Source: a virus. Taken from it: a stretch of DNA of 41,335 bases. The translations under genes and the position numbers were made by a program. Where the stretch lies: the IMG/VR virus record IMGVR_UViG_3300025671_000154, positions 1 to 41,335 of that record; one strand, given 5' to 3'. The notes below the pieces were generated by a model. That model had not been told where the DNA came from and made no database searches. It saw only the letters and a program-made list of their open reading frames with translations. Of this stretch, positions 2,989 to 41,335 are shown in pieces. Every line of letters starts with the position of its first letter. Position 1 is the stretch's first letter.

Positions 2989-4200
2989 ATGGAAAAACAG
3001 CTAATTAAAATGATGCTCAATAAAAAGTTTTATAATGAGTATAAGGGAGTTATATCTCGTAGTATATTTGAGGGTGAACTTGGTTCATTCTTTGAGTCAC
3101 TACAGAAAGCACATAAAGATTATGATGGCGATTTAAAAGTTGATGATGTATACACTTTGCATGTAGGTAAATTTAATCCTGCATTAACTAGAACTGCTAA
3201 AGAAAAGTTTGAAGAACTTGTAACTGAAATAAAACAAGTCACAGACCCAACACCTGCTATAGCAAAAGATATAGCAAACATAATGGTGGATAGAGAAACT
3301 GCTCAGAAAATTGCCATTGAAGCTACAGAAATATTTAATGGTAAGCCTGCAAACTTTAGTGAGATTTCAAAAATAATTGAAGGTCATAAAAAAAATTTGC
3401 CAGATGAAGATATAAAACCTGTAACAAATGATATAGGAAAAGTCATTGAGCAGTTGTCAGTAACTACTAAATGGAAATTTAATATACCTGTACTATCAGA
3501 AAAAGTTGGTGGAATCGGCCCAGGCAATTTAATGATTGCATTTGCTAGACCAGAGACAGGTAAGACTGCTTTCTGGGTTAGTTTAGTTTCAGCACCAGAT
3601 GGTTTTGCATGGCAAGGTGCAAATGTACATGCATTTATAAATGAGGAACCTGCAGTAAGAACTCAAATGAGAACTATATCTTGTTCAACTGGATATACTA
3701 GAGACGATATACCAGACAATATGAAAGAAGTACATTTTACATGGTCAAAAGTAAGAGACAATATAAAATTATTTGATGTAGTTGATTGGACATTAGATGA
3801 CATAGATGCTCACTGTGAAAAGCATAAACCAGATGTTGTAGTAATTGACCAACTAGATAAAGTAAATTTAGATGGTAAGTTTTCTAGGTCAGATGAAAAG
3901 CTACGAGCAATTTATACAGGTGCAAGAGAGTTAGCTAAGCGTAGAAACTGTGCTGTCATAGCAATATCTCAAGCATCTGCTGAGGCACATAATAGAAATA
4001 GTATATCGTTTGATATGATGGAAAATTCTAAAACTGGAAAAGCTGCTGAAGCTGATTTAATTATTGGTATAGGTAGAAATCAAAGTTTAGATGAAGCAAA
4101 CACAAATAGAACTTTGTGTATAAGTAAAAATAAAATAACAGGCTATCATGGTGAACCTAGCTGTGTTATTAGAAGGGATATAAGTAGGTACGAAGGATGA
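2989..4200 (+). CDS. Replicative DNA helicase (RecA-fold, DnaB/T7 gp4 type)
   Basis: This hexameric 5'-3' helicase presumably works with the TOPRIM primase encoded just upstream. An earlier in-frame ATG at 2974 exists, but AAAGGA lies inside its first codons and is correctly spaced for the ATG at 2989, giving 403 aa. Motifs in that numbering are Walker A A-R-P-E-T-G-K-T at 186-193, where the usual first Gly is Ala; a catalytic-type E-E at 219-220; Walker B D-V-V-V-I-D at 282-287; an A-I-S-Q-A-S sensor at 325-330; and a conserved Arg near 363 that could be the arginine finger. The N-terminal 150 residues look helical. The stop overlaps the polymerase start (ATGA). Confidence 0.85.
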   Translation: MEKQLIKMMLNKKFYNEYKGVISRSIFEGELGSFFESLQKAHKDYDGDLKVDDVYTLHVGKFNPALTRTAKEKFEELVTEIKQVTDPTPAIAKDIANIMVDRETAQKIAIEATEIFNGKPANFSEISKIIEGHKKNLPDEDIKPVTNDIGKVIEQLSVTTKWKFNIPVLSEKVGGIGPGNLMIAFARPETGKTAFWVSLVSAPDGFAWQGANVHAFINEEPAVRTQMRTISCSTGYTRDDIPDNMKEVHFTWSKVRDNIKLFDVVDWTLDDIDAHCEKHKPDVVVIDQLDKVNLDGKFSRSDEKLRAIYTGARELAKRRNCAVIAISQASAEAHNRNSISFDMMENSKTGKAAEADLIIGIGRNQSLDEANTNRTLCISKNKITGYHGEPSCVIRRDISRYEG

Positions 4201-6251
4201 TTACAATAGTAGATGTAGAAACAACTTTTCAAAAAAATAAAAACAATGGGTTTGACCCATCACCATTTCATGCTAACAATAAATTAGTTAGTGTTGGATT
4301 AGATTCTAAATATGGTTTGGAATATTATTTTACACACCATTCAGAAAAAGTTAGTAGAGGTGGTGTAGCTAGAATACAAGAAGTACTAGATGAAACTACA
4401 TTATTGATAGGTCATAATTTAAAATTTGATTTGATGTGGTTATTAGAGTCTGGATTTAAATACACAGGTAAAGTATATGATACTATGATTGGAGAATATA
4501 TTTTAAACAGAGGTATTAGAAAATCTTTAACACTTCAGATGTGTTGTCAGCGTAGAAAAATAGGTATGAAAGATGATCGAATAAAAGATTTCATGGACAG
4601 AGGTGTATCTTTTGATAACATACCTGCTGATTTAGTAGAGGAGTATGGTCGTAATGATGTTGCTATTACGAGAAGACTATTTGATTCTCAGATGGCAGAC
4701 TTTAGATTACCTGCTAATAAAGATTTAATTAAAACTGCTAAGACTATGGGTGAGTTTCTTGTTGTATTAAGTGATATGGAACGCAATGGTATTTATGTAG
4801 ACTTAAATGTATTAGAAAAAGTTAATGCAGAATACAAAGCAGAAAAAGAATATCTAAGTCAGAAAATAAATAAAATTGTATATAATAAAATGGGTGATAC
4901 TGAAATTACTTTATCAAGTCCAGAACAATTATCTTGGTTAATCTATTCTAGAAAACCTGTAGATAAAAAAGAATGGTCAAAGATATTTAATATAGGTGTT
5001 GATAAAGCTACAGGTAAAAATAAAAGAAGACCACAAATGTCTAGAATACAGTTTAGAAAAATTGTACAAGCTAATACTGTACCTGTATATAAAACTACAG
5101 CTAGTAAATGCACTGACTGTAATGGTAAAGGCGTTATAAAGAAAATAAAAAAAGATGGAACACCATTTAAAAAATATCCTAAGTGTACAGAATGTAAAGG
5201 TAGTGGATTTGTTTATCATAACATGGCTAAACTTGCAGGGTTTAATCAGATACCTAAAAGTGTTTATGATGTATCTGAGTCTGGTTTTAGATCAGATAAG
5301 ATTACTTTAAATAAATTAGCAGCTGAATCTGAAGGAGAGTTAAAAGATTTTTTAGATTCTATTGTTAGATACAATGCAGTAGATACTTATCTATCTACAT
5401 TTATTGATGGTATGAAAGAGCATACAGATGATCATGGAATGTTACACCCAAAATTTATGCAAGCTGTAACAGCAACAGGAAGATTATCAAGTCGTGATCC
5501 TAACTTTCAAAACCAACCTAGAGGAACTACATTTCCAATTAGGCAAGTAGTAAAGTCTAGATTTAAAAATGGTAAGATACTTGAAATAGATTTTGCACAA
5601 CTTGAATTTAGAACTGCTGTATTTATGGCACAAGATAAACAAGGTATGGAAGATATAAAAAATAATGTTGATGTACATAAATATACTGCAGATATTATTG
5701 GTGTATCAAGACAAGATGCAAAAGCACATACCTTTAAACCATTATATGGTGGAGTATCTGGTACTGAAAATGAAAAGAAATATTATAGTAAGTTTCTTGA
5801 AAAGTATAAAGGTATTAAAGAATGGCATGAGCATTTACAAAATGAAGCAATAAGATTTAAAAGAATTAAAATACCTACAGGTAGAGAATATTCTTTTCCA
5901 TATGCTGAGAGAATGCCTTGGGGTGGTTCTAGTTATGGTACTCAAATTAAAAATTATCCTGTGCAAGGATTTGCTACAGCAGATATAGTACCACTTGCTT
6001 GCATTAATATTTATAAACTAATGAAAGAAAACAAAGTTAAAAGTTTATTAGTAAATACTGTACATGATTCTATTGTAGCTGATGTGTATCCTGGTGAAGA
6101 AAATATTATGTGTAAAATATTTAAGCAAGGTACTAGTGGAGTTATAGATTCTCTTAAAGAATATTATGACATTGATTTCAATGTTCCACTTGACACAGAG
6201 ACTAAAATAGGATATAACTGGTTAGATATGAAGGAGGTAATTATAACATGA
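4197..6251 (+). CDS. DNA polymerase, family A (T7-like), with zinc-motif insert
   Basis: The 684-aa replicative polymerase is close in size to T7 gp5. The N-terminal 3'-5' exonuclease is intact: D6-x-E8, a G-H-N-L-K-F-D block at 72-78 and Y150-x3-D154. The palm and fingers carry T-G-R-L-S-S-R at 427-433, motif A D-F-A-Q-L-E at 465-470, the O-helix R505/K509/F513 and motif C V-H-D-S at 622-625. All catalytic Asp residues are present. Between the two domains lies a DnaJ-like double motif, C305-x2-C308-G-x-G and C330-x2-C333-G-x-G, near where T7 carries its thioredoxin-binding loop. The residue matching T7 Y526 is Phe. The start overlaps the helicase stop. Confidence 0.95.
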   Translation: MITIVDVETTFQKNKNNGFDPSPFHANNKLVSVGLDSKYGLEYYFTHHSEKVSRGGVARIQEVLDETTLLIGHNLKFDLMWLLESGFKYTGKVYDTMIGEYILNRGIRKSLTLQMCCQRRKIGMKDDRIKDFMDRGVSFDNIPADLVEEYGRNDVAITRRLFDSQMADFRLPANKDLIKTAKTMGEFLVVLSDMERNGIYVDLNVLEKVNAEYKAEKEYLSQKINKIVYNKMGDTEITLSSPEQLSWLIYSRKPVDKKEWSKIFNIGVDKATGKNKRRPQMSRIQFRKIVQANTVPVYKTTASKCTDCNGKGVIKKIKKDGTPFKKYPKCTECKGSGFVYHNMAKLAGFNQIPKSVYDVSESGFRSDKITLNKLAAESEGELKDFLDSIVRYNAVDTYLSTFIDGMKEHTDDHGMLHPKFMQAVTATGRLSSRDPNFQNQPRGTTFPIRQVVKSRFKNGKILEIDFAQLEFRTAVFMAQDKQGMEDIKNNVDVHKYTADIIGVSRQDAKAHTFKPLYGGVSGTENEKKYYSKFLEKYKGIKEWHEHLQNEAIRFKRIKIPTGREYSFPYAERMPWGGSSYGTQIKNYPVQGFATADIVPLACINIYKLMKENKVKSLLVNTVHDSIVADVYPGEENIMCKIFKQGTSGVIDSLKEYYDIDFNVPLDTETKIGYNWLDMKEVIIT

Positions 6252-36572: not shown

Positions 36573-37511
36573 TTAACCGATTGTTATAACACCAGAGTAT
36601 ACAGCGTCATCTCTTAAGATTTTTCTTCCGAAAACGTGTAATCCTCTTACGATGTCAGCGAATGAATCAGGGTCTCTGATTAATTCTGTTTTTGCAATGT
36701 GGTTAGCTGTAGCTACAGCAGACATATGTCCATATAAGAATGCATATTCGTTTGCACCTGATGAACCAAATGTTTTGTTTGCAGCACTTCCGCTAGACAC
36801 AGCAATTGCGTTAGTCATGTACATGTTAAAACCAAATAACGGTTTGTCAGTAACCATACCGTTTCTGATTTGTGATACACCACCATCGTTCAAGATTGAT
36901 TGGTCTGAAAGTTTAGCACCAGCTTTTCTTAATTGTTGAAAAAAAGCAGGCGGTGCTACTAACCATCTATTTTCTTCTGGTACGTCATTCCCATCAAGAA
37001 CTGTTTTAGCAGCTGAAACTACATCTGCTAAAGTATCTGTAGCAGCATCACCATCAATTGGTGAACCATCAGTACCTGTGTTACCAGCTGATGTTGCAGC
37101 ATTGTCGTAGATGTGCTTCAACACGTTGAAGTCATAGTTTCTTTTTAATGAGTATGCACCTGAAGAGGTTGCAAGAGCTTCAAAGTTTACATGAGATTGT
37201 CTTTCTTCAATGTCATCTACTTTGAAAGCAAAGTATGAACCTTGATCAACTGTCATAGTGATTTGGTCATCAGCTAAGTCTTGTGTAGAAACAGCTGTAC
37301 CTCTTGCATAATCTGCAACAGTGATTGTAGGTTCTTTTATTATTTTAACAGTATCGCCAAAATTTTCAATTTCTCCAGCATAATCAGTGTTAGTAATGTC
37401 TTCTACCACTGATGCTCTTCTGAAGAATTTTTGAACCTTCTGACTAAAAATTTGTGGAGTGAAATTACCTGAAGGTAAGTTTCCGTATCCACCAGCACTT
37501 CCAAAAGCCAT
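36573..37511 (-). CDS. Major capsid protein
   Basis: The 312-aa product is the likely HK97-fold head subunit. Evidence is its place after the scaffold gene, the size and features such as F-F-R-R-A-S-V-V-E-D-I-T-N, the K-I-I-K-E-P-T-I-T-V-A-D-Y strand, a D-I-E-E-R-Q helix turn, R-W-L-V-A-P-P-A-F-F and the ending K-T-E-L-I-R-D-P-D-S-F-A-D-I-V-R-G-L. These resemble capsid proteins of marine podoviruses. AAGGAGGG before the ATG is the best ribosome binding site of the arm, after a short CTAAA repeat. Confidence 0.85.
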   Translation of the reverse strand: MAFGSAGGYGNLPSGNFTPQIFSQKVQKFFRRASVVEDITNTDYAGEIENFGDTVKIIKEPTITVADYARGTAVSTQDLADDQITMTVDQGSYFAFKVDDIEERQSHVNFEALATSSGAYSLKRNYDFNVLKHIYDNAATSAGNTGTDGSPIDGDAATDTLADVVSAAKTVLDGNDVPEENRWLVAPPAFFQQLRKAGAKLSDQSILNDGGVSQIRNGMVTDKPLFGFNMYMTNAIAVSSGSAANKTFGSSGANEYAFLYGHMSAVATANHIAKTELIRDPDSFADIVRGLHVFGRKILRDDAVYSGVITIG

Positions 37512-38552: not shown

Positions 38553-39071
38553 TTAAACTCCTTGAGTATCTATTGATTGATAATCAATATCTCCTGCTTG
38601 TTCACTTTCGGGTGGCACAGTTTGTTGATCCATCTCTTGACTAGATGCAAGATCAGCTATAAAACTTTCTACAGCTTGAGCTTCATCTGCTCCACCATAT
38701 CTTTTAGTTGCAAATGTTTTTACAACTGAGACAGGTAGAACTACGTTCTCTTCTGCACTAGTAAATTGATCCACAAGTGGACTAAGTTCTGGTGCTAGTT
38801 TTTTAAGAACGCCTGCAACAGATGGAGCTAATACTGTATCAAGTACAACCTTATCTTCATCTGTTAGAGATTGAATTTTGTTTTGTAAATCTTCTGATGG
38901 CATTTCTTGGGGTTGAGGCTGAGGTCTTTGTGCAACTTGTTGAGGTTGAACTCTTTTAGGTTGCATAGATTCTGGAACTTTCATTCTACTCATATCGGGT
39001 GCTTGTGGAGTAAAAGGTTTTTTATCTACTAATCCAGTTGTGCTAACTTTATTCCCTGCTTCAATTGCCAT
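38553..39071 (-). CDS. Pro/Gln-rich virion-region protein, 172 aa
   Basis: Residues about 35-60 are Pro/Gln-rich (P-K-R-V-Q-P-Q-Q-V-A-Q-R-P-Q-P-Q-P-Q), followed by a helical part with L-A-P-S-V-A-G-V-L-K-K-L-A-P-E-L and an acidic end. I recall similar proteins between portal and scaffold in pelagiphage-like genomes. The start overlaps the stop of the Hint-domain gene (TAATG). A head assembly role is inferred from position. Confidence 0.6.
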   Translation of the reverse strand: MAIEAGNKVSTTGLVDKKPFTPQAPDMSRMKVPESMQPKRVQPQQVAQRPQPQPQEMPSEDLQNKIQSLTDEDKVVLDTVLAPSVAGVLKKLAPELSPLVDQFTSAEENVVLPVSVVKTFATKRYGGADEAQAVESFIADLASSQEMDQQTVPPESEQAGDIDYQSIDTQGV

Positions 39072-41089
39072 TATAAATGCCTATTACGTTTAGTGTTTAA
39101 TAAATTATAATTTTTATCACTTACAAAGTTTCCTATTAACCAACATAAAGGTTCACCTATACCTGCATAGATTCTTCCTAATAAATCAAATTTACCTTGA
39201 TTCATTCTCCATGCAATATCATTTGCTCTATGTTGTGCAATATGTTTCCAAACTTTTCTGTAAGTTTTAAATTTTTGAATATGTCTTACTGTTGGAATTG
39301 CCCAAGCTAAATATCCTTTTAAATGTTTTTTACTTAAATGTCTGTAAGTAAATCTTATATCTCTTACTAAATCAGCTGTAGATAATTCTCCTGTTTTATT
39401 TAATTCTGTACAAATAACTCTTTGTGATCCACCGCCACCACCTTTGTTGTGTACTACATATTTATCTGCAATATATGAATTGTCATTTGAAACATTAAAA
39501 TTGTATAAAGGTGTTTTAGGACTTTCTATATCTTTTGATTTAATATCAGTAATTTCTAATAAACCATTTTCAGTTATAAGTTTATCACCAACTTTTAATT
39601 CACCTTTTAATTGATTATATAATTCAATACCATCACGTTCTTTTGTTTTTTCTGGTTTAATAGATTTCCAACCTTCATCTGTCATGAATGGGTGTTCTGA
39701 AGTAAAAAAATAATGTTCAGTATTATTAAATGAATATAATTTTCTTTCACCTAATAATGTAGGATCTAATTTAATAACTTCATTATCACCTTTGTATCCT
39801 TTTACTTTATCTCCAACTATAATATCTTCAATATTTTTAGTTGTACCATCTGCCATAGTAATTTTAGTACCAGCAATAAAACAACTTCCATATGCTGCTT
39901 CTTCTTTAGTTTGTTCTCCAAAGCTATCTTTACCTGTGCTTTCTTTTCTACTACCGTAGACTTCTTTGTTTTCTGCTTTTGCTTTTGCTCGATCTGCTAC
40001 TTCTTTATTTTTTTTATTATTATATTCTTCTAATTGTTTTTCCATTTTTTTAGTATCATCTATAAATTTTTGAGATACATTTTTAGTAGCAATAGTATTT
40101 TTTCTTGTTGCAATTCTAGTACGAGCACCTCTAGCTATATCTCCAAATGCAGAAACTGCATTCATACCAGCAAATACATCTGTAGCTGGATTACCTCCTA
40201 CTCTACCATTATCCATAACATTAAAATAAGATTTATTAAATTTGTCTGTAGGAGATTCTTGAATATTAGCAGCTATACTTCTAGCAATTGTAGCTATTGG
40301 CCCAGACGTTAAAACTTTACCTACGCTAGTAGCTAATGACTGTAATCCTGTTTTAACTGTAGATAAACCAGTTGTCGGTGCTTCTGGTTTTACATCTTCT
40401 TTTTCAGCAGGATCAGCTAATGTGCCTGCAGTTGAACCTGCAAATCTTGCAGTATCTAAAGGTTGTGCAGCAACTTTACTAATACCTAATTGTGCAGCAT
40501 CTGAAGTCATTGCAGCTCTAGCATCTGCAGTTGTAGATGCATATGCTTGAGGTGCTTGAACTTGTTGTGCACCTAAACTTAAACTTCTAAAAGGACTAAT
40601 AGGTGTTTTATCTACAACTATACCTGGAGCTTTTGGTTGTGTTGTATCACCAGCTATATCTCTCATAGTTGGTCTTTCAAATGATGATTTAGTTGTTTGT
40701 TGTGTAGTATCACCAGCTATATCTCTCATAGTTGGTCTAGCTACACCTAAACTAGTTGTAGTTGTATCAACTTGCGGATCAATTTTTTTAGCTTCTTTTT
40801 GTAGCTGTGCTTGGCTCAACATTTCTGAACCAGTATAATCTATTCTATCCCCACCTGTTGCAGGTTTAAATGCTTCTGTAGTTTGTTGTGCTACAGTTTG
40901 TGTAGTAGCTTCTGTAGTTGCTTTTGATGTATCTGTAGTACCAGCAGTTGTAGTTGTATAATCTGGTATAGATAATTTTTTAACAGGAGTAAATCCAACT
41001 TGTTTGACTGTATATTTTCCAGTAGTAGGATCTTGAACTAATTCAAAAGTTCCACCACCAATTCTATTTACATCAAAAGTTGTTGCCAT
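39071..41089 (-). CDS. Hint (intein/hedgehog-like) domain protein, 672 aa
   Basis: Three parts are visible. Residues 1-400 are low-complexity Thr/Gln/Ala, then helical. Residues 403-548 are a Hint domain: C403 followed by F-I-A-G-T-K-I, T-M-A-D-G; T463-S-E-H466; and the end V-V-H547-N548. Residue 549 is Lys, not Cys, Ser or Thr, so ordinary splicing is not expected, but autocleavage is possible. After a five-Gly run comes a C-terminal domain (V-I-C-T-E-L, then Y-L-A-W-A-I-P-T, G-E-P-L-C-W) known to me from proteins of alphaproteobacterial phages. AAGGAA precedes the ATG. Confidence 0.8.
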   Translation of the reverse strand: MATTFDVNRIGGGTFELVQDPTTGKYTVKQVGFTPVKKLSIPDYTTTTAGTTDTSKATTEATTQTVAQQTTEAFKPATGGDRIDYTGSEMLSQAQLQKEAKKIDPQVDTTTTSLGVARPTMRDIAGDTTQQTTKSSFERPTMRDIAGDTTQPKAPGIVVDKTPISPFRSLSLGAQQVQAPQAYASTTADARAAMTSDAAQLGISKVAAQPLDTARFAGSTAGTLADPAEKEDVKPEAPTTGLSTVKTGLQSLATSVGKVLTSGPIATIARSIAANIQESPTDKFNKSYFNVMDNGRVGGNPATDVFAGMNAVSAFGDIARGARTRIATRKNTIATKNVSQKFIDDTKKMEKQLEEYNNKKNKEVADRAKAKAENKEVYGSRKESTGKDSFGEQTKEEAAYGSCFIAGTKITMADGTTKNIEDIIVGDKVKGYKGDNEVIKLDPTLLGERKLYSFNNTEHYFFTSEHPFMTDEGWKSIKPEKTKERDGIELYNQLKGELKVGDKLITENGLLEITDIKSKDIESPKTPLYNFNVSNDNSYIADKYVVHNKGGGGGSQRVICTELNKTGELSTADLVRDIRFTYRHLSKKHLKGYLAWAIPTVRHIQKFKTYRKVWKHIAQHRANDIAWRMNQGKFDLLGRIYAGIGEPLCWLIGNFVSDKNYNLLNTKRNRHL
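40644..40738 (-). repeat. 32-bp direct repeat in Hint-protein gene
   Basis: Two identical 32-base copies (40644-40675 and 40707-40738) lie exactly 63 bases (21 codons) apart. They encode two copies of R-P-T-M-R-D-I-A-G-D-T-T in the N-terminal region of the 672-aa protein. Confidence 0.85.
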
Positions 41090-41090
41090 A

Positions 41091-41297
41091 TTATTCCTTA
41101 TTGCGTTTGTTCGCTTCCTTCAGGTTGAGTATTTGCCGCACTAAAGCCAGCTTCCCCTGGCATCGGCACACTTCCCGTTCCGATGTTGCCACCTCCAGCT
41201 CCCGATACATCTGTTGCTGAAGCTCCAGGAGGTACTTCTCCAGTTGGCCCCATTTGACTTTGTCCTCTAGCAGAGGCAGTATTGTTTTGATTTCCAT
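41091..41297 (-). CDS. Small helical protein overlapping the portal end in another frame, 68 aa
   Basis: The frame is nested in the last part of the portal-like frame. It encodes a regular amphipathic helical protein: L-P-L-L-E-D-K-V-K-W-G-Q-L-E-K-Y-L, R-E-L-E-V-A-T-S-E-R-E and A-L-V-R-Q-I-L-N-L-K-E-A. I know this type of protein (W...L...Y, then E-x-A, then L-L-N-L) from the same place in podovirus genomes. GGGGA precedes the ATG. The local GC is higher than in the rest of the arm, as expected for two-frame coding. The stop is 1 base before the next start. Confidence 0.65.
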   Translation of the reverse strand: MEIKTILPLLEDKVKWGQLEKYLLELQQQMYRELEVATSEREVCRCQGKLALVRQILNLKEANKRNKE

Positions 41298-41335
41298 TTG
41301 CCATCCCCATTATTTGTGCATAGATCGCAGCTTTT
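41098..41335 (-). CDS. Portal protein C-terminal end, truncated by window edge
   Basis: The frame is open to the right edge (K-A-A-I-Y-A-Q-I-M-G-M-A before the first listed ATG). It then gives a Gly/Pro/Gln-rich tail with P-P-G-A-S-A-T-D-V and G-G-G-N-I-G-T-G-S-V-P-M-P-G-E-A-G-F-S. I recall this tail type from portal proteins of marine podoviruses, and gene order (portal before scaffold and capsid) agrees. Only the last 79 or so residues are in the window. The main body lies outside, so this is a probable, not proven, call. Confidence 0.6.
   Translation of the reverse strand, partial: KAAIYAQIMGMANGNQNNTASARGQSQMGPTGEVPPGASATDVSGAGGGNIGTGSVPMPGEAGFSAANTQPEGSEQTQ

Follow-up and report, generated by a model that had tools for sequence, protein, structure and literature searches.

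The window analyzed here (the whole 41,335-nt stretch of viral DNA) encodes, next to its portal gene, a 672-aa protein of which residues 403-548 are a real Hint domain and a conserved member of a known family. Our analyses established the domain, its fold, the invariance of its catalytic residues, purifying selection on it, its mobility as a cassette and its optional presence in closely related phages. We consider it to be a new variant of the A-type bacterial intein-like (BIL) domain, one with an ordinary-looking fold that lies in an unusual place, is carried on a phage recombination cassette and is trailed by an invariant lysine. The best explanation, which we hold to be rather probable, is an active A-type BIL at the modular hinge of a structural-region protein, where it would cleave and could possibly also splice or conjugate via Lys549.

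Identification of the Hint domain

The hallmarks named in the original prediction (Cys403, T-x-x-H and the terminal His547-Asn548) were all present, and the span it gave, 39446-39883, proved exact, running from the Cys403 codon (39881-39883) to the codons of His547-Asn548 (39446-39451). The domain comprises 146 aa and, as had also been noted, the residue after its terminal Asn548 is Lys549 rather than Cys, Ser or Thr (Table 1). No second Hint was found in the 41,335-nt window. Matches to the Pfam families Hom_end_hint (E 1.7e-7) and Vint (E 1.1e-4) both fell just below the curated cut-offs, and a single-sequence search of the PDB identified the BIL domains 6y75/6tmm (E 9.6e-6). The profile comparison that had been proposed as a check bore out the assignment: with a family profile, the best PDB match was 2lwy, an A-type bacterial intein-like domain of Clostridium thermocellum (E 2.8e-29), and 6y75/6tmm matched at ~5e-27. 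An AlphaFold2 model built with a 76-row alignment had a mean pLDDT of 87 (structure prediction without an alignment reached only 34) and has the horseshoe Hint fold, its top PDB matches in Foldseek being Tetrahymena BIL2 (TMt 0.81), the gp41-1 intein (0.83) and 2lwy (0.79).

Table 1. Coordinates in the window of the Hint-encoding gene, its parts and neighboring genes
Feature	Position	Strand	Basis
Whole gene, 672 aa: N part, Hint, Gly linker, C-terminal module	39071..41089	-	ORF
N part, residues 1-402, Thr/Ala-rich, hypervariable among near-isogenic phages	39884..41089	-	
Hint domain, residues 403-548, A-type BIL-like, without homing endonuclease	39446..39883	-	Profile and predicted fold
Cys403, block A nucleophile, 32/32 in the phage family	39881..39883	-	
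Block B, T463-S-E-H466; T and H invariant in the phage family	39692..39703	-	
Block G, His547-Asn548	39446..39451	-	
Lys549 at +1, invariant (32/32 phage-family copies)	39443..39445	-	
Linker KGGGGGSQ, residues 549-556	39422..39445	-	
C-terminal module RVICTEL..., residues 557-672; basic (pI 10.3) and largely helical, without a known family	39074..39421	-	
Approximate segment swapped for ~55 bp in Hint-less alleles L012/L013	39423..39980	-	
Portal gene 3' end (SU10-type)	41098..41335	-	
Major capsid protein, 84% identical to HTVC033P capsid	36573..37511	-	

BILs occur in bacterial proteins and in ciliates, and little is understood of what they do in nature; the A-type domains were reportedly described by Amitai in 2003 and Dassa in 2004. 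The phage domain has the features of A-type BILs such as 2lwy, that is, the Hint fold, a Cys at position 1 (Cys403), T463-x-x-H466, a His-Asn end, no nucleophile at +1, no homing endonuclease and a location in a variable region of a non-conserved protein. Unlike them, it recombines as a cassette among structural-region phage proteins, is framed by invariant Ser(-1), Lys(+1) and Gly(+2) residues and often has a second Hint after it; its activity is predicted. The closest solved fold, BIL2 of the Tetrahymena BUBL1 locus (6tmm, 6y75), shares the terminal His-Asn and the Hint block order; however, BIL2 lies between ubiquitin-like domains and is a reported isopeptide maker, whereas the phage Hint lies between phage modules and conjugation by it is hypothetical. 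Class 1 mini-inteins (e.g., gp41-1) share the fold and blocks A, B and G. Inteins use Cys, Ser or Thr at +1, however, and in the phage protein this residue is Lys549 and the insertion site is a hypervariable Gly/Ser linker rather than the conserved motif of an active site. An ordinary intein was therefore rejected, based on the missing +1 nucleophile and the variable insertion site. Nor did the arrangement agree with a Hedgehog Hog domain, in which a sterol-recognition region comes after a C-terminal Hint; in the phage protein a Gly linker leads into an unrelated helical module. The Pretoxin Hint (PF07591), a hinge of polymorphic toxins, is also found at the junction of interchangeable C-terminal modules, but its match to the phage domain was weak (13.6 bits versus a curated cut-off of 27.7; E 0.083), and the phage N and C modules are of unknown function with no toxin domain recognized. 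A terminal Hint-toxin was rejected as no toxin family was recognized, and an assembly artefact was rejected as the same allele was present on three further contigs (L002-L004).

Genome context of the Hint-encoding gene

The genome is that of an HMO-2011-type podophage near the pelagiphage HTVC033P, with a GC content of 33% and a capsid protein and DNA polymerase 84% and 74% identical, respectively, to those of HTVC033P. Its DNA polymerase A (4197-6251) contains a PF00684 DnaJ-type zinc domain at residues 300-341, between the exonuclease and the polymerase, and a partial DnaJ domain at this location is a hallmark of HMO-2011-type phages (PMC9038755). HTVC033P-like phages have been reported among the most abundant pelagiphages (PMC9038755). 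Outside SAR11, a possible host link comes from one copy of the cassette (L031/L102), whose 32-kb contig doubles as a single-cell scaffold of Flavobacterium (KB911105.1).

The gene directly upstream of the Hint-encoding gene is the portal gene (Pfam SU10_portal, 2e-34; PHROG portal), and downstream are, in order, a 172-aa gene, a 311-aa gene (phrog_13678, of unknown function) and the major capsid protein gene (phrog_267). As such, the original placement between portal and scaffold was roughly right, scaffold being a role that the position of the 311-aa gene would fit. Gene position, the sole basis for placing the Hint-bearing protein in the virion, makes its presence there plausible. The equivalent protein of HTVC033P, gp76, shares the position after the portal and both the N and C ends, and HMO-2011 gp49 shares the position and the C module; neither has a Hint. 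The C module gave no Pfam, PHROG or PDB sequence match, and no separate fold match because the Hint dominates the fold search. It is widespread after Gly linkers in marine phage proteins, where it carries VICTEL or IVCTAM and has two conserved Cys (window 39074-39421, HMO-2011 gp49, HTVC033P gp76 and L022).

Optional presence and shuffling of the cassette

Three Hint-less loci (L012, L013 and L014) were near-isogenic to the window, with DNA identities of 98-100% at the portal end, 94-99% in the C module, 95-100% in the next two genes and 98-100% in the capsid gene. In these alleles ~55 bp encoding a Gly/Ser-rich linker takes the place of window 39423-39980, and the N part has 70-84% DNA identity, compared with 66-84% over the Hint-less alleles as a whole. 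L011 and L017 were likewise Hint-less, with Gly-rich linkers. A C-module scan built from close relatives yielded 80 loci, seven of which had a Hint (L170-L172, L005, L187, L188 and L209, by contig matching), and across all loci there were 12 distinct C-module proteins with a Hint and 53 without. As the 53 Hint-less relatives keep the N part and C module covalently joined through a Gly/Ser linker, separation of the two is not generally required. A natural split was found in L016, where an N part with another Hint type, an unrelated product and the C module are encoded by three separate ORFs.

The same cassette was identified with at least 11 N-part clusters that lack any BLAST link to each other, including a DUF4815 protein (L042). 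What follows HN-K-G is either a Gly linker with one of several C modules (ICTEL, VCTMM, ICTQM, VCTAS, LCDYI or CVIATH) or a further Hint, of a second type, that ends FTDY or FADY; a second Hint follows in 17 of 32 copies. Conservation extends over the unit Ser(-1)-[Cys...Asn]-Lys-Gly, and the variation lies outside it. Mapped on the tree of Hint DNA, the C modules require 13 changes, compared with a minimum of 8 and a shuffled mean of 14.5, and the almost identical Hints of L041 and L056 precede different C modules; judged from these comparisons, the modules are shuffled relative to the Hint tree. Since the Hint is absent from near-isogenic phages and present in unrelated proteins, it is a shuffled cassette whose presence in the hypervariable hinge is optional, and the maturation step suggested in the original prediction would not be a fixed one for this protein. 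The N part of the portal-adjacent gene is hypervariable among phages whose neighboring genes are 95-100% identical, and the motif RPTMRDIAGDTTQ is repeated inside the N part of the window (39884-41089).

Searches of cultured phages gave solely short or weak matches to the first Hint, and therefore no isolate with the cassette, and no match to the second Hint type. Our literature search, with incomplete open-access coverage, found no paper on the cassette, its setting in the phage structural region or its conserved trailing Lys. A large marine phage family with a BIL at a recombination hinge, a fixed Lys at +1 and closely matched Hint-less alleles as natural controls makes two questions testable, namely why BILs sit at sites of module swapping and whether lysine can act as the +1 nucleophile.

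Conservation and likely activity of the domain

Hint-based scans defined a phage family of 32 distinct copies at least 76% identical. All 32 share C403, T463, H466, H547, N548, Lys+1 and Gly+2, and conservation of the corresponding catalytic residues is 92-100% in 96 wider Hints. These counts depend in part on the search, whose patterns included CFIAGT and whose tally was restricted to domains extending to the terminal Asn; L090 and L122 are exceptions that lack HN. Synonymous variation is seen in the phage-family codons for C403, T463, H466 and N548, and the median dN/dS is about 0.19, a value by which the Hint is judged to be under purifying selection. In place of the block F His that 70% of relatives have, the phage family has Asn (27/31), Ser or Lys, and this replacement might weaken C-terminal cleavage or coupling. 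On the strength of these sequence comparisons the domain is likely active, and autoprocessing is the best reading because the catalytic residues are invariant, selection is purifying and the nearest solved relative is a BIL.

Lys is at +1 in 18 of 40 clusters (50% identity) versus a Lys background of 5.8% (binomial 2e-12, a value that ignores shared ancestry). On the tree of all Hints, Lys+1 requires ~14 changes and is therefore not essential to the fold. In 19 of 128 Hints the tail is no longer than 10 residues, and 10 of these 19 end HNK, HNKK or HNKT; Hints with practically no C-terminal flank suggest an N-terminal-only or Hedgehog-like use. Among proteins of bacterial MAGs and viral contigs, those of L111, L113, L115, L078, L081, L095, L101 and others stop at HNK or a single residue beyond it.

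Predicted outcomes of autoprocessing

A-type BILs have no +1 nucleophile, occur in variable regions and cleave, and splicing by aminolysis is possible for them (PMC4031507, PMC5874633, PMC7765530). In those studied cleavage dominates, and splicing takes place when the freed amine attacks the N-terminal thioester (PMC4031507; PMC5874633). In the most likely course, Cys403 would take the N part (ending at Ser402) as a thioester, and Asn548 would cyclize and so cut the Asn548-Lys549 bond. The thioester could then be hydrolyzed to give separate N, Hint and C products or, alternatively, the freed amine of Lys549 could attack it and rejoin the N part to the C module. We infer that catalysis occurs and, by analogy with the A-type BILs studied, that the product mix should be dominant cleavage with some ligation. 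As the absence of a +1 nucleophile is part of what defines A-type BILs, which can nevertheless splice, cleavage, splicing and lysine linkage are all candidate outcomes, and to call the junction non-splicing, as in the original prediction, was too strong (PMC4031507, PMC5874633). Its suggestion that the protein cuts itself or becomes linked agrees with autoprocessing as the best reading of the sequences, with the amendment that splicing is also a candidate outcome.

Were the Hint mainly to splice, it would remove itself, join Ser402 to Lys549 by aminolysis and be a nearly neutral passenger. The spliced product would then be the normal protein, given the 53 Hint-less relatives with Gly/Ser-joined N part and C module, and splicing has been reported for an A-type BIL without a +1 nucleophile (PMC4031507). 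We nonetheless think this unlikely, as cleavage dominates in the A-type BILs studied (PMC4031507), 17 of 32 copies precede a second Hint without a C module, the wider relatives often stop right after HNK with nothing to splice, and the C module is a separate ORF in L016. Short-tailed Hints, too, leave hardly anything to splice. Autoprocessing with dominant cleavage is therefore favored, with splicing as its main rival and lysine conjugation as the novel case.

In conjugation, the thioester of the N part at Cys403 would be passed to a lysine side chain (of Lys549 or of another virion or host protein) to form an isopeptide, or to a small nucleophile as in Hedgehog. BIL2, the closest fold match, reportedly makes isopeptide bonds of the K(epsilon-NH2)-C-terminal kind (PMC8616854), and the invariance of the +1 Lys in the phage family, its enrichment across clusters and the ten relatives with HNK, HNKK or HNKT ends are in line with such a role. 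The conserved Lys could, however, merely serve junction geometry or the cassette boundary, it changed ~14 times on the Hint tree, and the acceptor lysine of BIL2 is proposed to lie within the ubl5 domain, not at +1; we therefore regard conjugation as quite improbable. Similarly doubtful is a more specific form, in which the +1 lysine of the phage BIL cassette would be dedicated to ATP-independent isopeptide ligation and the N part of a structural protein would pass to the Lys549 epsilon amine or to a lysine of another virion or host protein; if true, virion proteins would be cross-linked or branched post-translationally. Least probable is that the domain is an inactive remnant of a degenerate intein, used as a spacer. 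Its optional presence, replaced block F His and missing +1 nucleophile would fit this reading, but N- and C-terminal catalytic residues invariant in 32 copies, synonymous codon variation and a dN/dS of 0.19 speak against it.

Second Hint-like family and tandem Hints

The second Hint-like family (CFIKGT...SGSH...FTDY) has no terminal HN and is often found after the first Hint (L016 2988-5368; C-termini of L029, L036 and L064); it gave a weak Hom_end_hint match (1.3e-5). Tandem Hints were identified in a 1219-aa marine phage protein (L009 3613-7269; L010 is identical in sequence), which has three with the junctions HN-KG-C and HN-KS-C. A single protein on a MAG contig labelled as a Thermoplasmata archaeon (L112:1-6756) has nine tandem Hints together with subtilase, rhodanese and thioredoxin matches, and proteins on contigs labelled as Nanoarchaeota (L110:5791-9756) and Woesearchaeota (L116:5014-6960) have four and three, respectively. 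The Hints of these three arrays are joined almost directly, through HNTC, HNKGC and HNKDGSCC.
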